The notes beneath the pieces were generated by a model that did no database searches, was not told where the DNA came from, and was given only the letters and a program-made list of their open reading frames with translations. Of a stretch of 55,669 nucleotides of DNA, positions 1,137-20,101 are shown piece by piece. Position numbers and translations under genes: made by a program. Within the stretch, counting starts at the first letter, position 1. Each line of letters begins with the position of its first letter. Source of the DNA: Gammaproteobacteria bacterium (GTDB taxonomy: Bacteria; Pseudomonadota; Gammaproteobacteria; Poriferisulfidales; Poriferisulfidaceae); the NCBI GenBank assembly GCA_026713705.1, contig JAPONY010000059.1:1-55669 (forward strand), read 5' to 3'.

Positions 1137-1156
1137 CACTAGTGTCCCAACGTTAA
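1137..1156. repeat. Left terminal inverted repeat of the IS
   Basis: CACTAGTGTCCCAACGTTAA reads inward from the left end. It matches the reverse complement of 2446-2465 with one mismatch (CAACG against CAACA). The repeat supplies the stop codons of both the interrupted host gene (1154-1156) and the transposase (1153-1155, minus strand). Confidence 0.85.
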
Positions 1157-2305
1157 TCGAGTAAATTCAACTGTTTACATGCCTCGTGCGGGCGCTCCAG
1201 GATATTCTCTTGCCTAAGTAGTTGATATAAATTTGCTTTCTCGAATATCGTCAAGCTCAAGATCTGTAGCATTGTGTACAGGCTGGCCTCGATTCGCCAA
1301 CGCTCCCGGAGTACCGCGATCAGTACGTATACGGTTATCGCGATCCAGATCTGCGTCTTCACCGCATTGGCCGAGGTCCCGTAAAACGCCTTGATTCTCA
1401 GGTGCTGTTTGATCCACTTGAAAAACAATTCGACCGGCCAGCGCTGGCGATACAGTTCCGCTATAGTCAAAGCGGGCAGGTTGAAATTGTTGGTCAGGAA
1501 GACCAAGGTCTTGTTCCTTTCCCGATCCCGATAGCGGACTCTTCGGATCTGGTCGGGGTAGTCTTTGGCGCTGCGGGTTCCGGTCAACCGGGCCACCTGG
1601 TCGCAGATGAGTCCGGTGGAGCGGTCCACCGGCCTGGAAGACTGGCGTTGCAATCGGGTTGTTGGATTTGGCGCGCAGGATGAAGAAGGCCCCCGCTCGG
1701 TCCAGTTCGCGAAGGCGAGAGAAATCCAGATAGGCGCGGTCCATGATATAGACCGCCCCGGCCTCGGGGCACAACAGGTCGAGAATGTTGACATCGTGCC
1801 GTTTCCCTTTGGAGATATGGACAAAGGCTGGGATTTTCCTCTGGATATCGAGCAAGGCATGCAGTTTGACGGCGGACTTCGTCTGCCGGAAGTGCGCCCA
1901 GCGATACAGATTCAGGCTGAGGTCGATGATCGAGGAATCCAAGGCATAGATGGACGAGAGAGTCTGCAGACCCGGGGCCTCGCGGACCCGCAGCCTCTGC
2001 GCCGTCTGGATCAGGCGCTGACCAAAGTCCTCGTAAATCCGCCAGTCGCGGACCCGGTTGGCATTGGCTAACGTGTTCCGGGAAACACCATGGCCGATCC
2101 CCAGATGGGGAAGTTTGTTCGCCTGCGCCCTCAGGCAGGTCTCGATGTCGCGCAAACTTTCGCGCTCTGTGAGTTGAGCGAAAGCCATACACCGGAATTG
2201 CTCGGAACACCGGAATGTCTTGACTTTGTACTCACCGTCATAACGCCTCACGCAACGCCGGAACGTATGCCAGGGCAACTGTTCCATGAGTTGTGAAAAA
2301 ACCAT
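1153..2305 (-). pseudogene. IS4 family transposase, frameshifted
   Basis: Translation starts at 2305 with MVFSQLMEQLPWHTF, the usual start of DUF4372-type IS4 transposases. It contains the first DDE aspartate in YALDSS and the second in YIMDRAYLDF. Near 1660 the frame is lost: one surplus A in an AACAAC run diverts the reading. The adjacent frame then continues with RPVDRSTGL, LTNNFNLPALTIAELY and the YRQRWPVELFFKWIKQHL signature carrying the catalytic glutamate. Joined, the two parts give about 384 residues, normal for the family. The enzyme is either inactive or the extra base is a sequencing error. Programmed frameshifting is less likely because this group normally has one uninterrupted frame. 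Confidence 0.85.
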
Positions 2306-2445
2306 TTGCCCCGTATACCTAGTCGGCCCTCCTCCATGTGAAAGGGAACTTGTACTATGTCAGGGCCCCATTTCCTCAAGCCTCTGACACCTCAGAAATG
2401 AAGCATAGAGATTGAAGATCAATAAGTTACAATTGCTTTATCTGC

Positions 2446-2465
2446 TTAATGTTGGGACACTAGTG
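2446..2465. repeat. Right terminal inverted repeat of the IS
   Basis: This is the inverted counterpart of 1137-1156, identical at 19 of 20 positions. It ends in the palindrome CACTAGTG, followed by one T and then the target duplication. Confidence 0.85.
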
Positions 2466-2466
2466 T

Positions 2467-2474
2467 TAAGAAAT
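2467..2474. repeat. Right copy of the 8-bp target duplication
   Basis: TAAGAAAT is identical to 1129-1136. It encodes part of a KKY triplet in the host gene frame. Confidence 0.75.
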
Positions 2475-2767
2475 ATAAACTTGAATGCGATGGATCAGAA
2501 CTTCAAAACTATATTAATGAAAAAATCCCAAATGACTTGATCGGGTTATCTGTATTATCCGTCGTTACTGAGGATTATGACTTTGACTCAGTCCTTACGC
2601 GTCTTGAAGAGGAAATAGCATCTGACTCCTTAAATGCTAAAAATGTTGGTCCATTCTATGAACTTTACCGAGCACTCGCAACGTCAAAACCCATAAAAAA
2701 CAATGGGAGCTCGTTCAGTCGCAGAACTTCTATCCCAAGTAGAGGGAGATTCAGATGTGCAATTTGA
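2475..2767 (+). pseudogene. KAP-like gene, middle fragment after the IS
   Basis: Starting right after the target duplication, the frame encodes YKLECDGSELQNYINEKI and continues through LSVLSVVTEDYDFDSVLTRL and FYELYRALATSKPIK. It is the direct in-frame continuation of the fragment that stops at 1136. After an A6 run (2695-2700) it drifts into an arginine- and serine-rich out-of-frame tail and stops at 2767. Dropping one A from the run leads straight into the next frame (KPIKTMGARSVAELL). A TTG at 2537 could be mistaken for a start but has no separate significance. Confidence 0.6.
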
Positions 2768-3788
2768 TTTGCTAGTCATGCGCTTGGCCATCGGGGCTGA
2801 TTTCCCAAACATTGGAAGAGTTGATGAAGTTATTTTAAGTAAAACAGATACAGACACAGTCCTCCGTGTTGCAGAAAGAATAGAGTATTACAAATCTCTC
2901 GGCCCTCTTTTGATCAATTACCCAGACTGGCCGCAACCTATCCTGAAAGCTGTCATAACAGAATTGATATTACATTTACGCGATGGCGCTAGATTGAGCA
3001 TTGTTCCAGTGCTAGAGCGCTACACTCGTCTCCAATCCTCTCTTGAGATTGAACCAGAAGCTTTTATAAACTGTCTTAACGGATGGGAGGGATATGCCCA
3101 AGAAGAAATTACTGTAGAAAATTTCTCAAACCACATAACTGATCATGAGCTAATTGAACACGCCGCACAAGTAGAGTGCGGTCTTTCGCATCATCTTATT
3201 GAAACGGCCTCAGAATGGTTGACCTCTTTAAGCATTAAAGAGTGGCAAAGTGCCCTTCGGAACGACTCTTCGTTCATATATAAAGTGACCTGCCATTTAC
3301 TTGCCGCAGACAAATTGAAGCCGATTCCTGATAATGTCATAACGGTTTATCGAGAGTTATTAATCGAAGTCGCTATGGGAGGATTTGAAATGAGTGAAAG
3401 TGCTAGTTGGAGTATTTTTTACGAAAAGATACATAAAGGGAAATTAAAGGCAGCCGCAAAAAACATCAGGGACCTTTTTATCTCTGAAATCTCAATTACT
3501 CCTGACAGGTTTTTATCTCTCTCCGACTTATTGATAAATCATGCATCATTGGATCAAAGGAATGGAGAAGTAGCAAGAAGAATTCTCGAGCCCGTCGTTG
3601 GAAATGAAGACTGTATGGCATGTATCGTTAATAACAGTCAAATATTCATTCCAATTATCAACGGTGCGGAAGACGATGCCGAGGGTTTTAAAGACGCTGT
3701 TAGACAAAAATTAGAGATGTCACAAGATGACGACAAATTGATTCGTTTTGCTAAAGAAATCGGAATTAGTGCCGATGATTCGGAATGA
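2703..3788 (+). pseudogene. KAP-like gene, 3' fragment
   Basis: A 361-residue frame begins at an ATG inside what was probably the middle of the same gene (SVAELLSQVEGDSDVQFDL onward). It is alpha-helical in appearance, has no membrane segment or catalytic motif I recognise, and ends in an acidic tail (EIGISADDSE). The base composition matches the upstream fragments. With the IS removed and the A6 run corrected, the fragments from 146 to 3788 would form one protein of about 770 residues plus a missing N-terminus. It could still be translated as a separate protein, but there is no evidence for that. Confidence 0.5.
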
Positions 3789-3977
3789 CCCAGGATAAGA
3801 GATTACTTCGTTTCCACTATAAAAAGCATTAAACACTATATCTAGGACTTAAAGCAACAAATCTACACCATATATGCCTCTATGATATAATTCAAATATG
3901 GCCGTTGGCTCATAAGTCACATAAACTCTCCAGATGTATAAGTTTGACACTCAAGGATTCAGTAAATAGCTATATCA

Positions 3978-4943
3978 ATGCTACAGGTAAATGCCGTGGA
4001 TCATTGGGAACACACCAAGCGAGGGCACGGGCAGTACTACACATCTGGCAACCCGTTTGCACACCGTGCGTTTCGACGCTGGGCCAGATTCGCCAACTTA
4101 CCTTCAAAAACTATTCTAGAACCCTTTGCCGGCGCGAACAGCTTGATATGGCGGCTACAAGGCATGGGGCTATGTAACAAGTTTTCATCTTTCGACATAG
4201 AGCCTGCTTGCGCAGAGGTTAAAAAACGGAACACGCTAAAAAGTTTTCCTTTAGGGTACGACGTATGCATTACGAATCCCCCATGGCTCGCGAAAAACAG
4301 CGCCTCCGTCCGCGGCTTGCCATTCCCCGATTGCCCACACGATGATGTCTACAAGCTAGCCCTCGAAAAATGCCTAGCACATTGTTCTTGGATTGCCGCA
4401 CTCGTGCCAGAATCTTTTATAAGGGCACAACTCTTTCAAGATCGCTTACAAACATTCGTGTCTTTGACCACCCAAATGTTTGAAGACACAGGACACCCAG
4501 TTGGGTTGGCATTATTTGGGCCAACTTCAGTCGAAGATATTCACATCTGGTCAGGGCACAGAAAAGTTGGGATTCTATCCAAACTACAAAAACTTCGCCC
4601 GCATCCAATTCCAGATGGACCCCTTGTCCGTTTCAATGATCCTGACGGCAATGTTGGATTAATTGCCTTAGATAATACGCAAACAGCCTCCATACGTTTT
4701 TGCGACATTGATGAGTTGGCAGACTATAACGTGAAAAAGACAGGGCGGCATATAACCAAGTTACTAGTTGATGAAAAAATCCAGATTAATTATTGGAATC
4801 AGATTCTCACAGAATTTCGAGAAGCAACCCATGATGTCCTAATGACTTGTTATAAGGGCATTCGAAAAGATGGCCGATATCGGCGTAGATGTGATTGGGA
4901 TCTAGCGCGAGGAATCGTTCATCATGCCAAAACCTCCTCCTGA
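3978..4943 (+). CDS. DNA adenine-type methyltransferase of a restriction-modification pair
   Basis: This 321-residue class I SAM-dependent methyltransferase has a GQYYTS motif X-like segment (residues 18-23), a SAM-binding ILEPFAGANSL (46-56) and the catalytic NPPW (100-103). The order X, I, IV is that of N6-adenine methyltransferases of the gamma or related groups. It probably protects host DNA from the endonuclease encoded immediately downstream, whose start lies 20 bp inside this gene. An in-frame stop at 3963 leaves 3978 as the first possible ATG; no good ribosome-binding site precedes it. TATAAT at 3886-3891 and TTGACA at 3944-3949 are possible promoter elements. The island is AT-rich, suggesting horizontal acquisition. 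Confidence 0.8.
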   Translation: MLQVNAVDHWEHTKRGHGQYYTSGNPFAHRAFRRWARFANLPSKTILEPFAGANSLIWRLQGMGLCNKFSSFDIEPACAEVKKRNTLKSFPLGYDVCITNPPWLAKNSASVRGLPFPDCPHDDVYKLALEKCLAHCSWIAALVPESFIRAQLFQDRLQTFVSLTTQMFEDTGHPVGLALFGPTSVEDIHIWSGHRKVGILSKLQKLRPHPIPDGPLVRFNDPDGNVGLIALDNTQTASIRFCDIDELADYNVKKTGRHITKLLVDEKIQINYWNQILTEFREATHDVLMTCYKGIRKDGRYRRRCDWDLARGIVHHAKTSS

Positions 4944-5580
4944 TTATGATGCGGAAGAACTGCGCGCCTGGCGTAGAAATGTCCAGGAGGTAGAAAATCG
5001 TCTCAAGAAATCAGAAAAAAACCTACTCAAAAGAATAGAGCTTTTTGCCTTGCGGTTTGAATATGGAGCAAAAGTTATATCTGAGAAAATTCGAGAAGAC
5101 CCTATGTTTGCTGCACATTTTGCAAAGGAACCTAGGCGAACTGGATTGCATGAAAAAATGGCAGCTGAATGGCTACAAAACTTAGAGCAGGTTAACGAAT
5201 TTGAAGTTTTGAAAAAATCGGGAAAAGATGCACTATACATAACAAGTGATGGGGAAATTAGAAAAGGCATGAAAAATCCTCCTTCAAAATCTCTAGATTT
5301 CCGATGGAGAACCGGTAATACGACTATCTATGCATCACATAAATACACCCGGGAAAGTGGTGGCAATCAAGACAGTCAATATAAAGAAATGGAAAAATTA
5401 CTTCGGCAATTTCAAAGTAGTAGCGAGGAGGCCTGCGTGCTGCTCGTGATTGTCGATGGCCCATATTACAAGGATAAAAAAATGGCTGATTTGAGGAATA
5501 ATACGCGATCACATCCGCCTCAGAGTTACGTGACCCATATTGAAGGAGTCCCGGATATTTTGAACGACTATGTAGAGTAG
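4924..5580 (+). CDS. Probable type II restriction endonuclease
   Basis: This 218-residue cytosolic protein follows a DNA methyltransferase with a 20-bp overlap, which implies translational coupling; AGGA lies about 10 bases before its ATG. The N-terminal third is charged and helical (residues 10-60). A candidate nuclease core is SKSLDFRW (aspartate 125), then IYASHKYT (lysine 140) and a GGNQDSQ segment (147-152). This spacing suits a divergent PD-(D/E)XK fold, but the usual acidic residue two positions before the lysine is a serine. The assignment rests mainly on context plus this partial motif. The recognition sequence cannot be inferred. Confidence 0.6.
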   Translation: MPKPPPDYDAEELRAWRRNVQEVENRLKKSEKNLLKRIELFALRFEYGAKVISEKIREDPMFAAHFAKEPRRTGLHEKMAAEWLQNLEQVNEFEVLKKSGKDALYITSDGEIRKGMKNPPSKSLDFRWRTGNTTIYASHKYTRESGGNQDSQYKEMEKLLRQFQSSSEEACVLLVIVDGPYYKDKKMADLRNNTRSHPPQSYVTHIEGVPDILNDYVE

Positions 5581-15473: not shown

Positions 15474-16454
15474 ATGCCCCTGCTGCGCCTGCAGGACCTG
15501 CCCAGCCTGAACCGGATTTCTGAACAGGGAGCCCGGGTGGCCGAACAGATTCCGGAGCATGCGGCCCGGCTGGATATCGGCCTGCTCAACATGATGCCGG
15601 ACCGCGCGCTGGCGGCGACCGAGCGGCAGTTCCTGCAGCTTTTGGACAGCCACGATGAACGTTGCTGTGCTGTGCATTTTTTCACCATCGAGGGGATCCC
15701 CCGCGGGGACGAAGGCCGCGAACATCTCCAGCAATACTACCGGGACTGTGCGGAGGTCGGCAACACGGATCTGGATGCCTTGATTATCACCGGGGCCAAC
15801 GTCACTCAGCCCGACCTGACGAGCGAGCCATTCTGGAACGGCCTAGTCGATGTGCTGCAGCAAGCCGACGGTCGCCGCCTGCCGGTCGTCTGCTCCTGTC
15901 TGGCCGCACATGCCTCTGCTCTCATCTTCCATGAGATCGCCCGCCGCCACCTGCCACACAAGCGTTGGGGAATCTTCGACCATTCGGTCTGTGCACCCGA
16001 CCATCCCCTGGCGGCGCACCTGCCGGCCCATTTCGAGATGCCGCATTCACGCTTCAACGAAGTCCCGGAGGCGGACCTGCAGGCACACGGCGTGGAGATT
16101 CTGGTCACGGGACCCGAGGCCGGCGTGCAAATGGCTGCAGAGCCGGACGGTCGCCGGCTTTATTTTCAGGGGCACCCCGAGTACGAAGCGGTCAGCCTGC
16201 TGAAAGAATACAAGCGCGAGGTCCTGCGCTATCTGACCCGGGAACGCGAAGACTATCCGCCCCGGCCCGAGAACACGTTCAGCGGGCTTGCGGCCGACCT
16301 CGCGGAAGCATTCCGCGAGCGGGTCCTGTCGCGGAGCGGCGGGGAGGAATTGATCGAGGAATTTCCGGAAGAAGCACTCGCGCGCGAAATGCGCCATTCA
16401 TGGAAAGACGTCTCCCGGCAGTTGTTTTACAACTGGCTCGGCAGCATGGGGTAA
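15474..16454 (+). CDS. MetA-like homoserine O-acyltransferase family protein
   Basis: The 326-residue protein has the MetA-type fold signatures. These are DIGLLNMMPDRALAATERQF, LIITGANVTQPDL (GAP in canonical MetA), a nucleophile candidate cysteine 142 in VVCSCLAAHA, KRWGIFDHSV and the His-Glu pair of FQGHPEYEA. MetA enzymes acylate homoserine on the path to methionine. The motif around the nucleophile (SCLAAHA rather than the usual CWGAQA) and GAN instead of GAP are divergent, so donor and activity are uncertain. In many gammaproteobacteria proC-yggT is followed by metXW. Here this gene sits on the other side of a restriction island from yggT. Confidence 0.75.
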   Translation: MPLLRLQDLPSLNRISEQGARVAEQIPEHAARLDIGLLNMMPDRALAATERQFLQLLDSHDERCCAVHFFTIEGIPRGDEGREHLQQYYRDCAEVGNTDLDALIITGANVTQPDLTSEPFWNGLVDVLQQADGRRLPVVCSCLAAHASALIFHEIARRHLPHKRWGIFDHSVCAPDHPLAAHLPAHFEMPHSRFNEVPEADLQAHGVEILVTGPEAGVQMAAEPDGRRLYFQGHPEYEAVSLLKEYKREVLRYLTREREDYPPRPENTFSGLAADLAEAFRERVLSRSGGEELIEEFPEEALAREMRHSWKDVSRQLFYNWLGSMG

Positions 16455-16485
16455 GAGGGAAACCCTCCTCAATCGGCAATGTACT

Positions 16486-16701
16486 TCAAGCCGCATCACA
16501 CTCCTGACCACGCCGAGCAAGGTCATTCAAGACTTTCACGCGTAAAGCATCCCGCTTTTTCTTGTACGCTATCAGGTCCTCGCGCATCACACGCCAGCGC
16601 AAACCAACCGGGATGTATGGAATATCGCCGTCTTTGAGGAGCTTATTCAAGTAAGGCCGCGAGACATTCAGGATATCCGCCGCTTGTTGTGTTGTCAGCA
16701 T
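16486..16701 (-). CDS. Excisionase-type HTH protein, possible orphan antitoxin
   Basis: The 71-residue protein contains a MerR/excisionase-like helix-turn-helix (MLTTQQAADILNVSRPYLNKLLKDGDIPYI) and ends in a basic helix (DLIAYKKKRDALRVKVLNDL). This layout is that of antitoxins paired with PIN-domain toxins. No toxin gene follows: the MetA-like gene converges 30 bp away. The start is placed at the ATG at 16701, preceded by TTGGAAC; an upstream TTG at 16719 is possible. It may be a leftover antitoxin, a small regulator, or an excisionase of the adjacent island. Confidence 0.65.
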   Translation of the reverse strand: MLTTQQAADILNVSRPYLNKLLKDGDIPYIPVGLRWRVMREDLIAYKKKRDALRVKVLNDLARRGQECDAA

Positions 16702-16765
16702 CGTTCCAATCGGAGCCAAAGTGGATTAGGTGCAATTTTACAAAAAATCCTTTAGCGAACAAACC

Positions 16766-16837
16766 CTATTTTCCGTCAAACTTCTTCTCAAGTCTGTCCA
16801 TTCTCTTACCCAATATCTGAAACATTTTTCCTATCAC
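16766..16837 (-). CDS. Micro-ORF 3 downstream of the endonuclease
   Basis: From a GTG that directly follows the stop of the previous micro-ORF, 23 residues are encoded, with the helical end KRMDRLEKKFDGK. An internal ATG at 16825 follows AGGA and would give 19 residues. No homology is claimed. Confidence 0.25.
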   Translation of the reverse strand: MIGKMFQILGKRMDRLEKKFDGK

Positions 16838-16930
16838 CTACATCTCCAGCCCGACCATCAATTTTTCTATTCGTTCCCGAAATGACAATCGCCGGTTCTG
16901 TTCAGAATCGGAAAGCGGTGGGTTTACCAT
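16838..16930 (-). CDS. Micro-ORF 2 downstream of the endonuclease
   Basis: Thirty residues (MVNPPLSDSEQNRRLSFRER, then a helical end) begin at an ATG overlapping the stop of micro-ORF 1 as TAATG and end directly before the GTG of micro-ORF 3. The residue composition is plausible for protein, with charged amphipathic helices. It could equally be part of one ancestral gene broken by frameshifts. Confidence 0.28.
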   Translation of the reverse strand: MVNPPLSDSEQNRRLSFRERIEKLMVGLEM

Positions 16931-17007
16931 TACTCCAGTCTGGCTTTGCCCATGTTCAGTAGAGTGCGGGCGGAGCGGTCAAGATCGGCTTGATCTTTGT
17001 CCTTCAT
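16930..17007 (-). CDS. Micro-ORF 1 coupled to the endonuclease gene
   Basis: Twenty-five residues (MKDKDQADLDRSARTLLNMG plus five) start at an ATG that overlaps the endonuclease stop as ATGA. The tight coupling suggests translation, but there is no homology evidence. Confidence 0.3.
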   Translation of the reverse strand: MKDKDQADLDRSARTLLNMGKARLE

Positions 17008-17516
17008 ATGGATTCACTTGGGAGATTTATGAAATCTGGGAGAACGTCTATAGGAATCATATCTGCATGTTTTTTTGTGAGTTTATAGGTCACTGATTGT
17101 CCTTCTGCCATACGAACGAGCCTCCCCGCCCGCCCTTCAGCAACATCTCCTTTTCTCCACATATCGAAAACAATGTCTTTCGGACATATCCCCAGACAAA
17201 GCAGATAACTGTAGTCCCTGTCCATGCGTATATGATTGAATTGGAATGTCCCATTCGCTCCGAGAGAGGCTGTCTTAATCTCAAACTTATTTCCGCCTAT
17301 GACCAAATCTACAGGAGATGTTCTCTTGCCATTTGAAACACTCACCCCTTTTGTTTTCAAATATCTCTTGATAAATTCTTCCCCAATTTCACCTCGATTT
17401 GTGTTGCCGAGTTTACGATAATCGGAGAGAGGAGACCCCACCCAAATATCTTCCGGAGAGTGCTCCCTGATGATTTCAACCAGCAAGGTGATTGGAGTTA
17501 TGTTGGTGGATTCCAT
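17004..17516 (-). CDS. PD-(D/E)XK restriction endonuclease
   Basis: The 170-residue protein has a well-formed nuclease motif: aspartate 70 in SPVDLVIGG, then FEIKTAS with glutamate 79 and lysine 81. An upstream GEIGEEFIKRYL helix (42-53) precedes it, as in Holliday-junction-resolvase-like folds. It presumably cleaves unmodified DNA at the site protected by the adjacent methyltransferase. It overlaps that gene by 19 bp. Codon use and base composition are AT-rich compared with the flanking yggT and MetA-like genes, consistent with transfer of the whole cassette. The specificity is unknown. Confidence 0.75.
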   Translation of the reverse strand: MESTNITPITLLVEIIREHSPEDIWVGSPLSDYRKLGNTNRGEIGEEFIKRYLKTKGVSVSNGKRTSPVDLVIGGNKFEIKTASLGANGTFQFNHIRMDRDYSYLLCLGICPKDIVFDMWRKGDVAEGRAGRLVRMAEGQSVTYKLTKKHADMIPIDVLPDFINLPSESI

Positions 17517-18226
17517 TTCCCCTTGCTGCCAATACGTTTCCAGAACACCAGAAAATAGGAATGATTTTTTCTCGCGTGAACCTGTCGTACTGTGCGGCTG
17601 ACTCCTGGTTTGTTGCCCCTGACAACAACGAACATATCTTCAGCTACAAACCCCATTTTTTCGTATGTTTGCATGATTTCAACATGTGTGAAACGTTGGG
17701 TGTTAGCACATACTTCATCTTGACATTTCACGATCATCACGCCTCGTTCGCGCAAAACCCTATAAGCCTCTGAACCAGCGTCTTTATATAACTCAAGAAC
17801 TGCGTCATGGTATTTACTCCCGGTGCGGTTCCCTGCGCCATTGTTGCGATAATAGCTTTCAAACTGAGTGTGTGACGCTTTATAAGCCGTTCCACCGGGC
17901 GAGTGCATATACGGCGGGTCCAAAACAACGCAATCAATAGATTCCTCCTGATAAGGAAGTTCACGGCAATCGATCCCGTCCAGAATGTCGGTAGCCAGAA
18001 GATTGTATTTCCGGTCTGGAACGTTTCGCCAGAATACCCCTTTCCCAAAGGTAACATCAGCGATCGTGCTTCCAGGAGATATGTATAAATCCAGAATACG
18101 TGGGAACACCTTATCGTTTCCTTCCGGATAGGCACTGACAACAAGATCGTTTGTTGCAGCACCGCTTCGAACACGACGCTTCTTGTCTGTCGTATTTTTG
18201 CGTTCCAGGGTTGTCTGTATCTGCAT
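17498..18226 (-). CDS. DNA methyltransferase (DPPY motif) of the second RM cassette
   Basis: The 242-residue enzyme has a SAM-binding loop IADVTFGKGVFW (residues 55-66), a DCVVLDPPYMHSP catalytic block (DPPY 103-106) and a late motif-VIII-like GVMIVKCQDEV. DPPY indicates amino-methylation (N6-adenine or N4-cytosine). The region 108-135, rich in glycine, asparagine and tyrosine, may form the target-recognition segment. The protein is short for a DNA methyltransferase. The start ATG at 18226 is 9 bp after the zinc-ribbon gene and the end overlaps the endonuclease gene by 19 bp, so the three are one operon. Confidence 0.85.
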   Translation of the reverse strand: MQIQTTLERKNTTDKKRRVRSGAATNDLVVSAYPEGNDKVFPRILDLYISPGSTIADVTFGKGVFWRNVPDRKYNLLATDILDGIDCRELPYQEESIDCVVLDPPYMHSPGGTAYKASHTQFESYYRNNGAGNRTGSKYHDAVLELYKDAGSEAYRVLRERGVMIVKCQDEVCANTQRFTHVEIMQTYEKMGFVAEDMFVVVRGNKPGVSRTVRQVHARKNHSYFLVFWKRIGSKGKWNPPT

Positions 18227-18235
18227 GACTTCTGC

Positions 18236-18490
18236 TCACGCCACCAGTTTCTTGCAGGTGATGGCCCTGTGCCTGTGTACCACGCCGACATAGGACCGAC
18301 AGCAGCAACCGCACCAGTACTCGCCGGATTTCTTCTTCTGTTCAGTAATCCTGTCGGTAGAGCCGCAGCGCGTACAGCAGGGAGTGCCTCCCCATCGGAT
18401 ACGCTCCATGTCTCGGATTATGTCCAGTTTGGTCGGATGCATCTGCATCAGGTCGAGCAAATTCAAGGTTGTCGCCGTTCGCTTTGTCAT
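18236..18490 (-). pseudogene. Truncated IS1595-type transposase zinc ribbon
   Basis: Eighty-four residues contain the N-terminal region of ISXO2/IS1595 transposases: a helical lead-in, then RIRWGGTPCCTRCGS and YWCGCCCRSY with a CxxC...CxxC zinc ribbon (C39/C42 and C60/C63). The catalytic domain is missing: after CRSY the sequence runs only 18 more residues. It is the first gene after the island promoter, has GAGAGG before its ATG, and lies 9 bp upstream of the methyltransferase. It may be a mere remnant, but its position leaves open a small DNA-binding regulator of the operon. Confidence 0.65.
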
Positions 18491-18520
18491 TATACATGCC
18501 TCTCTGAAACGTTTGGTGGT

Positions 18521-18595
18521 CTGAATGTCTGAAAATTTATTGGTGATAACAATATCTTATAAAAGAATATTTGCAAGAAAAGACTGAATGTCTGA
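18521..18595 (-). promoter_or_regulatory. Promoter flanked by 12-bp direct repeats, RM operon
   Basis: On the minus strand, TTGCAA (18571-18576) and TATTGT (18549-18554) are spaced by 16 bp. The 12-mer TCAGACATTCAG occurs exactly twice: at 18584-18595, upstream of the -35, and at 18521-18532, downstream of the -10. The copies start 63 bp apart, close to six helical turns. This layout suits operator-based control of the downstream methyltransferase/endonuclease genes. The remaining bases of 18491-18717 hold no gene. Confidence 0.5.
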
Positions 18596-18717
18596 CACAG
18601 AAACATTTTCGGTTTTATCAACTAGTCAATTCCCAATACTAATGTCGACCGAATTTCATCATGTCCAAAATTTTTTACCACATATAACCCGATCTTTACC
18701 TATATCTTTCTCATATG

Positions 18718-19260
18718 TCAAACAATAAGCCCCCACTGACCGATCCGATACAGCCCACTCTGCAGGAAATAAAGCCCGAACAGGGCCACCATGGGGGACA
18801 GGTCCAATATTCCCGTATCCGGGAGCACTGCACGGATTCGCATGAGGATCGGCACCGTCAGGCTACGCACCAGGCTCAGGAACGGGTCCGCACCGGCCGA
18901 CAACTGCACCCAGCTGGCAATCACCACGACGATCAGGGAGACCAAGTAGATATTCAGCGCCATCCCGCCGATCTGAGTCAGCGCGTACAACACCAGGCCC
19001 AGGTACGACACCTCAAGCCGTGCCGCCCCACCCACGAAAAGGCTGATCAATTCAAGCGCCAGCGCAATGAGCAGCAGGGCGAGGTCCCAGCCCCGGGTCG
19101 ACGGCATCACGCGCCGGACCGGGCGGTACAGCGGATCGGTCACCCGCGCCAGCATCTGCGAGAGCGGGTTGTAGAAGTCCGCCTGATGATACGTCAACAA
19201 CAGCCGGACCAGGAATCCGTACAGATACAGGGTGATCAGGAATTGGAACAGGTCTGCCAT
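18718..19260 (-). CDS. yggT: YggT family membrane protein
   Basis: The 180-residue inner-membrane protein has two YggT repeats, each with paired hydrophobic helices and an R-P-type loop (MLARVTDPLYRPVRRVMP and SLVRSLTVPILMRIRAVLP). The function is poorly defined; family members are linked to osmotic tolerance and membrane organisation. The start at 19260 is chosen because MADLFQFLITLY is the conserved beginning and it sits one base past the proC stop. The longer frame to 19323 lies within proC. It is the last gene of the metK-to-yggT minus-strand run. Confidence 0.93.
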   Translation of the reverse strand: MADLFQFLITLYLYGFLVRLLLTYHQADFYNPLSQMLARVTDPLYRPVRRVMPSTRGWDLALLLIALALELISLFVGGAARLEVSYLGLVLYALTQIGGMALNIYLVSLIVVVIASWVQLSAGADPFLSLVRSLTVPILMRIRAVLPDTGILDLSPMVALFGLYFLQSGLYRIGQWGLIV

Positions 19261-19261
19261 G

Positions 19262-20101
19262 TCAGGCCCGGCTGTTCTCGTCGCCCAGTTCCTCGGCCCG
19301 GCGGCGCGCGGCCTCGAGTGCATTGAAGATCAGGGTCCGGAAGTCCGCCGCCTCCAGCACGTTCAGGGCCGCCTCGGTCGTTCCGCCCTTGGAGGTCACT
19401 TTCCGGCACAATTCTTGCAGGGAATCTTCCGAGGCACTCGCCAGTTCCTGTGCCCCGCGGGCCGTCTCCAGCACCAGCAGGCGGGCCTGCGCCTCGTCCA
19501 TTCCCATGCTGCACGCCCCTTCGATCATCGCCTGCATGAACAAGAAGAAATAGGCGGGCCCACTGCCCGAAACCGCCGTGGCGACATCCATCAGGGCCTC
19601 GTCTTCCACCCAAAGGATCTTCCCGACGCTTTCCATGATCCTGCCCGCCAGCGCGTGTTGCGCGTCGGTCACGTCTTCCCGTGCATACAGGACGCTCATC
19701 CCGGCGCCAACCAGCGCCGGAGTATTCGGCATGGCGCGTACCACCGGGCAATGCCCTCCCGTCCAACGCGCGAGGTCGTCCGCGCGCACGCCAGCCGCGA
19801 TGGTCACCAGCAACGGATTGTCCGTGACCATCCAGGGGGCGAGTTCGGTGGCCGTCGTCGGCAATTTGTCAGGCTTGGTCGCAAACAGCACGACATCCGC
19901 AGAAGCCCTCGAATACGCCAGCGAATTCTCGTAGTACAACTGCATCAGGCCGAAATTGGCAGCCAGCGCCTGGTGGGACTCCGGGTCGGGATCGGATACC
20001 GTGATGTCGCCGGCTTCCCAGCCGGAGCGAATCAGGCCGCCCACCAGCGAGCGGCCCATGTTGCCGCCTCCGATCAGTAGGAGTCGTGCGTTTTCAGACA
20101 T
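19262..20101 (-). CDS. proC: Pyrroline-5-carboxylate reductase
   Basis: This 279-residue cytosolic enzyme reduces pyrroline-5-carboxylate to proline with NAD(P)H. It has the Rossmann glycine motif LLLIGGGNMGRSLVGGL (residues 7-23), the substrate region VVRAMPNTPALVGAGMS and the C-terminal dimer signature ALMDVATAVSGSGPAYFFLFM followed by VTSKGGTTEAAL. Length and motifs are typical. It is 45 bp downstream of pyrK. YggS, which often precedes proC in related genomes, is absent. Confidence 0.95.
   Translation of the reverse strand: MSENARLLLIGGGNMGRSLVGGLIRSGWEAGDITVSDPDPESHQALAANFGLMQLYYENSLAYSRASADVVLFATKPDKLPTTATELAPWMVTDNPLLVTIAAGVRADDLARWTGGHCPVVRAMPNTPALVGAGMSVLYAREDVTDAQHALAGRIMESVGKILWVEDEALMDVATAVSGSGPAYFFLFMQAMIEGACSMGMDEAQARLLVLETARGAQELASASEDSLQELCRKVTSKGGTTEAALNVLEAADFRTLIFNALEAARRRAEELGDENSRA

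Follow-up and report, generated by a model that had tools for sequence, protein, structure and literature searches.

We propose that the cassette lying at about 16721-18634 of the window, the whole 55,669-nucleotide stretch of DNA analysed here, is a decayed IS1595-type element with a type II restriction-modification cargo, that the first of the three micro-ORFs behind its endonuclease gene (ORF1) is half of a small terminal gene, and that the two others (ORF2 and ORF3) are leftover. We give this reading a probability of roughly 0.7; with it, a puzzling run of micro-ORFs becomes a readable fossil. Read along the minus strand, the cassette and its left flank hold in turn a zinc-ribbon ORF, the methyltransferase, the endonuclease, ORF1, ORF2, ORF3 and a helix-turn-helix (HTH) ORF. 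ORF1 (16930-17007, minus strand, 25 aa) starts inside the ATGA of the endonuclease stop, ORF2 (16838-16930, minus strand, 30 aa) overlaps ORF1 through a TAATG, and ORF3 (16766-16837, minus strand, 23 aa) begins with a GTG abutting the stop of ORF2 (TAG-GTG). These coordinates, lengths and junctions had been given by a sequence-only reading of the same DNA and proved correct when re-read from the window sequence; that reading did not mention the strand, which is the minus strand for all three micro-ORFs as for the endonuclease. ORF2 and ORF3 share one frame with an in-frame TAG between them, so that their abutment amounts to a single frame broken by TAG. The G+C content is 45% in the segment 16724-18714 versus 61% for the window.

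IS1595-type elements of the genus and their small terminal gene

An intact element of 2641 bp in genome G005 (L009) carries a transposase, a methyltransferase, an endonuclease and a 50-aa ORF between 24-bp perfect terminal inverted repeats (TIRs), with the target-site duplication (TSD) TAATGAAA. The target duplication of the IS1595 family is 8 bp long. TIRs together with an 8-bp TSD were found at seven of nine transposase places in the genus (L009, L064, L065, L066, L067, L069 and L070, the nine places being L009 and L064-L071, and some TIRs and TSDs being read by eye from the flanks); none were found at L068 and L071, nor at a tenth place, L093. A methyltransferase is present in five of the nine (L009, L065, L066, L067 and L071). 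At L071 (138-2584, contig C27 of the window's own genome), the IS1595 transposase is broken into two frames and is followed by overlapping frames for a methyltransferase and an unrecognised 209-aa ORF. Another contig of the same genome, C26, contains a 2379-bp unit (L123, 1037-3415 of the fetched stretch) with TIRs and the TSD TTTCGTTT, which encloses a methyltransferase, an unrecognised 365-aa ORF in the endonuclease position and a small gene with an ATGA overlap. No transposase was seen between the TIRs of this unit, a possible non-autonomous restriction-modification transposon.

In L009, L065 and L066, the gene of a small basic protein follows the last cargo gene and lies next to the TIR, with its stop 31, 34 and 28 bp, respectively, from the outer end of the element; other small ORFs of L067 and L069 stop 36 and 27 bp from the element end. 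Clear similarity links the small proteins of L065 and L066, with a p of 0.0005 that is the lowest value the test can give, and the comparison of the small ORFs of L009 and L069 gave p 0.0035, which is not safe among the 45 pairs tested. With a threshold of E 0.5, a profile built from L009, L065 and L066 had matches in 12 of 39 genomes, the window region not being among the matches. Beyond the three query places, five matches reached E 3.8e-5 or better, all within the genus (contigs C108 and C151 of G005, C1 of G004, C5 of G001 and C26 of G000, the window's own genome). The family comprises a subfamily A (L009, L120, L122 and L123) and a subfamily B (L065, L066, L119 and L121). The four subfamily A proteins are each encoded by one unbroken frame of about 50-57 aa. 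They are 55-58% identical to the L122 member, and most of the differences fall at the third codon position, as real genes would show. The ATGA start is conserved in L009, L065 and L123, where the small gene starts at 4170, inside the end (4173) of the ORF in the endonuclease position. The family has an N-terminal motif, LDKAxRALLGM, and a C-terminal motif, TKADLKRKFRMRVDR. Searches returned no Pfam family for the small proteins of L009, L065, L066 and L067, and no NCBIfam family for those of L122, L123 and L119; the L122 protein had no match in plasmids or phages and the subfamily A alignment had none in viral contigs. At L119 and L125, the stop of the small protein coincides with a further ATGA that opens a hydrophobic peptide, giving chains of tiny coupled frames in these relatives, and in L066 a 49-aa hydrophobic ORF precedes the small gene.

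With a subfamily A profile (L009, L120, L122 and L123, the window being excluded), the ORF1 frame comes out on top among 1266 six-frame pieces, at E 3.5e-6 with the runner-up at 0.16. The alignment spans profile positions 1-23, that is, only the N-terminal ~23 of 50-57 residues, in which ORF1 carries the LDKAxRALLGM motif; the C-terminal motif is absent from every frame of the window. Pairwise shuffling gave p 0.0002-0.0004 against L122, L123 and L120, and the comparison with L009 alone was not significant (p 0.12). Differences at the three codon positions number 9, 4 and 15 with respect to L122, and 8, 5 and 14 with respect to L123. The position of ORF1 also fits the family, with its ATGA overlap and its location between the endonuclease and the left end of the element described below. 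The window frames did not stand out with a four-sequence profile of L009, L065, L066 and L069, and subfamily B had no match to the window region. The homology to subfamily A shows ORF1 to be the N-terminal half of a small terminal gene, a fragment and not an intact member of the family. The proposal of the sequence-only reading that one gene was broken by frameshifts is thus borne out for ORF1, which is half of what is a single frame in relatives, and is unproven for ORF2 and ORF3, which match nothing; since the C-terminal half is found in no frame, a frameshift alone fails to explain the break.

In sister genomes, the last gene of elements of this type encodes a small basic protein and often extends from the ATGA of the cargo stop to just inside the TIR. 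The overlap suggests translational coupling, in which ribosomes finishing the cargo gene would restart on the small gene, and the ATGA shared by L009, L065, L123 and the window is consistent with a small protein made along with the cargo. In the window, the small gene would have lost its conserved C-terminal half and, being cut in half, probably its function, while ORF2 and ORF3, one frame with a TAG, would be what is left between the break and the end of the element. It had also been suggested that the micro-ORFs are small restriction accessory peptides. This is not supported as it stands. Relatives of ORF1 indeed have their start within the ATGA of a stop that ends an endonuclease or methyltransferase gene, but related small genes also terminate methyltransferase-only elements (L065, L066 and L119), so that the small genes are part of the transposable element and not of restriction. 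It is unlikely that the window encodes three peptides with functions of their own. The basic character of the intact protein leads to the guess that it may bind nucleic acid, and, as a weak guess, it could in this way assist or regulate the element.

Ends and insertion site of the window element

An IS1595-family transposase remnant lies at 18236-18490 on the minus strand. Over residues 2-65 of its intact counterpart in L009, it is 59% identical (E 2.4e-20), and its match to the Pfam family Zn_ribbon_IS1595 (0.0052) is below Pfam's cutoff. Only the zinc ribbon is left; the transposase ORF ends at 84 aa, the methyltransferase comes next and the DDE catalytic domain is missing. The window cassette is thus a remnant and not a working IS1595 member, and the element is no longer able to move by itself.

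The right end of the element, a TIR at 18607-18634 (minus strand), is the best match in the window to both TIRs of L123, with a score reached by 5 of 22250 overlapping scan windows, all at that site. We infer an eroded left TIR at 16721-16750 (plus strand), with its outer end at about 16721-16723. This site ranks 24th of 111314 positions with a TIR weight matrix, its score with the right TIR of L123 is reached by 42 of 22250 scan windows, and it coincides with a breakpoint of homology at 16722-16723. A direct search for paired ends in the window was not significant (p 0.32), the right end being clear and the left one eroded. From the endonuclease stop to the element end, the distance is 281 bp in the window versus 180 bp in L009, 165 bp in L065, 190 bp in L067 and 350 bp in L066; that it exceeds the distance in the first three speaks against our reading.

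The left flank is the 3' half of an HTH antitoxin-like gene (16486-16719, minus strand; HTH_17) with 74-78% identity to its relatives. Intact versions of 151-156 aa are present in G004 and G001, with a PIN-domain ORF next to the gene in G004, and a PIN_3 match was found on L027. The homology to the G001 and G004 genes stops at 16722-16723; the stretch from there to the endonuclease, micro-ORFs included, is thus foreign, and the possibility that the micro-ORFs are the leftover 5' half of the antitoxin gene is ruled out. No 8-bp target duplication surrounds the window element (GAGCCAAA on the left versus AATACTAA on the right), which likewise speaks against our reading; together with the missing 5' half of the antitoxin gene, it makes a later deletion on the right side likely. 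The insertion site, between flanking genes at 15474-16454 and 18718-19323, is variable within the genus. The gap spans 2.3 kb in the window; among the sister genomes it is longest in G003 (3.4 kb), followed by G001 (2.2 kb) and by G002 and G004 (about 1.5 kb each), and shrinks to 31 bp in G005. The site (16454-18718 in the window) thus holds differing cargo among the sister genomes G001-G005 and is nearly empty in the last of them.

ORF2, ORF3 and the other readings of the chain

No relative was found for ORF2 or for ORF3. Their common frame was submitted, as a 54- or 70-aa query with X at the TAG, to a tblastn-like search. Two of 39 relatives matched at E 0.1 or better, corresponding to the window itself and to a chance match at 0.095. 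In 369 genomes of the class there were again two matches, the own genome and G226 (E 0.015), the latter beside a gene read as diguanylate-cyclase-like; phages and plasmids gave none. At the DNA level, the segment 16723-17003 gave, besides itself, only short chance matches in 20 relatives and a single 30-base chance match in plasmids. A likeness of ORF2 to an L065 peptide, noticed by eye, was not significant (p 0.27). An ATGA ORF behind the endonuclease is not a general feature, being absent from L033 and L004; on the viral contig L032, the element ends 5 bp past the endonuclease stop and a 42-aa ATGA frame runs beyond the element.

The gapless coupling of the three frames had been considered unlikely to arise by chance. 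We simulated 20,000 Markov sequences with the composition of the cassette, conditional on an ATGA at the endonuclease end, and a chain of at least three ORFs of 20 or more aa with offsets from -4 to 0 appeared in 1.4% of them; with looser spacing, the proportion was 5.3%. In the window itself, 291 of the 4510 start codons on both strands head such a chain. The simulation and the scan thus show that the chain is weak evidence, and it is homology rather than the chain that raises ORF1 above chance.

These frequencies favour a narrower form of the decayed-element explanation, in which ORF2, ORF3 and the junctions arose by chance in a spacer richer in AT and only ORF1 has a coding past. We hold this to be about evenly balanced, our confidence in it overlapping with that in the broader reading. 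It is opposed by the base composition by codon position, which is coding-like for the three frames jointly (p 0.0016, the frames being picked post hoc) and which, in ORF2 and ORF3, is a feature that our best explanation does not account for. The same composition would suit a single gene of ~80 aa with a helical C-terminus, extending across the three frames and disrupted by a frameshift and a nonsense mutation, as would the common frame of ORF2 and ORF3 and the distance of about 43 bp between the end of ORF3 and that of the element, which is close to the 27-36 bp of the relatives. Such a gene is nonetheless unlikely: the relatives are about 50-57 aa long and their C-terminal motif is in no window frame, neither ORF2 nor ORF3 resembles any member of the small family significantly (p 0.06-0.99), and the read-through with X gave no family above cutoff, with only a weak coiled-coil match below it (Trimer_CC, 0.023 and 0.043).

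A working chain, in which ORF1, ORF2 and ORF3 would all be translated through stop-start coupling, could draw on the chains of tiny ORFs in the relatives L119, L125 and L066 and on a GGAG located 6 nt upstream of the ORF3 GTG. We consider it very improbable, since ORF1 is without half of the conserved protein, ORF2 and ORF3 are without relatives and form one frame holding a stop, and a comparison of the codon usage of the three frames with that of the two cargo genes, methyltransferase and endonuclease, does not favour it (p 0.45, 0.16 and 0.61). It also seems quite unlikely that the IS1595 elements of the genus encode an undescribed small protein which is coupled to the last cargo gene, adjoins the TIR and serves the element in transposition or cargo control whatever the cargo, and of which the window keeps a truncated, still translated version among coupled micro-ORFs. 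The preferred reading remains that of a decayed element in which ORF1 is half of the terminal gene and ORF2 and ORF3 are leftover.

Restriction-modification cargo and known systems

The endonuclease gene of the cassette (17004-17516, minus strand) encodes a 170-aa PD-(D/E)XK-like type II restriction endonuclease (PADLOC REase_II, 1.5e-15), in which D70, E79 and K81 are invariant in five aligned rows. Its structural model has a pLDDT of 84 and its fold matches I-Ssp6803I, EcoRV and Hjc at moderate scores. Relatives were found in G005 and G003 (3 of 39 relatives matched, the own genome being counted), and also in a Pacearchaeota genome record and at five viral-contig loci. The 242-aa DNA methyltransferase (17498-18226, minus strand), whose gene overlaps that of the endonuclease, matches N6_N4_Mtase (PF01555, 1.9e-8) and phrog_24333 (1e-58), and is 62% identical to a methyltransferase of the viral contig L037. 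Endonucleases of this family are paired with differing methyltransferase types, as seen by comparing the window with L009, L032, L033 and L004. From their sequences, both genes look intact and may still work, and the pair may survive as stranded cargo that is possibly active. Elsewhere in the window (3978-5580, plus strand), an ORF of 321 aa containing a methyltransferase-like NPPW motif overlaps one of 218 aa; the two are probably what the sequence-only reading took as a first restriction system, and with the cutoffs applied neither had a match in Pfam or PADLOC. Two overlapping frames at 1153-2305 (minus strand) resemble, as judged by eye, a frameshifted transposase.

An IS1595 transposase beside methyltransferase or restriction genes is also seen in three viral contigs. 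L032 has a transposase, a methyltransferase and an endonuclease between 23-bp repeats, the flanking A8 runs being too simple for a clear TSD; in L033 the three genes follow one another in this order, and repeats were not found there; and in L037 an IS1595 transposase is close to a methyltransferase. The L037 region (1660-4564) also encodes a DUF6471 protein and a convergent endonuclease of another family. The association of IS1595 transposases with restriction cargo was seen in the genus and in these three contigs, and did not emerge as a general rule from the plasmids and the stretches of the class that were sampled. In plasmids, none of the five IS1595 neighbourhoods examined (53 records matched) had an annotated restriction system adjoining the transposase, one of them having a DNA methyltransferase gene about 4 kb off, and in the class at large such cargo is rare, methyltransferase-like matches having been found in 2 of 30 stretches (L078 and L080).

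The small-protein family and its IS1595 setting appear to be new: the literature searched contained nothing on IS1595 elements with restriction-modification pairs or on the small protein, although most subscription papers fall outside its coverage, so that this is no proof of novelty. Two points merit testing: that IS1595-type elements carry methyltransferases and restriction-modification systems in a small-genome genus, and that a conserved protein of about 50-57 aa, unrecognised by Pfam and NCBIfam, is encoded at the end of such elements. If restriction systems travel in such units, terminal repeats would locate their exact borders.

Elements in which an IS1595 transposase is accompanied by passenger genes (tIS) are known, and the accessible part of one paper (PMC5704250) gives MTnSag1 and tISCpe8 as examples and presents them as mobilizable elements, one being named a lincomycin resistance element; in the accessible part of PMC9296519, IS1595 is merely listed in a table. 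As far as these parts allow comparison, L009, L065, L066 and L067 are like tIS in having a transposase with zinc ribbon and DDE domain, TIRs of about 25 bp, a target duplication and cargo beside the transposase. They differ from the tIS examples in their cargo, a DNA methyltransferase or a restriction-modification pair, and in the terminal small gene, and the window element differs further in that its transposase is fragmentary and the element dead. The pair in the window, a methyltransferase and a PD-(D/E)XK-like endonuclease encoded by overlapping, co-oriented genes, is like type II restriction-modification systems. The short C proteins that regulate restriction-modification systems are about 80 aa long and of the helix-turn-helix type, and their gene is placed before that of the endonuclease. 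Compared with this description, the small family resembles C proteins as a small gene adjoining restriction genes, but differs from them in that its members are basic, about 50-57 aa long and last in the element, related ones occurring in elements without an endonuclease.
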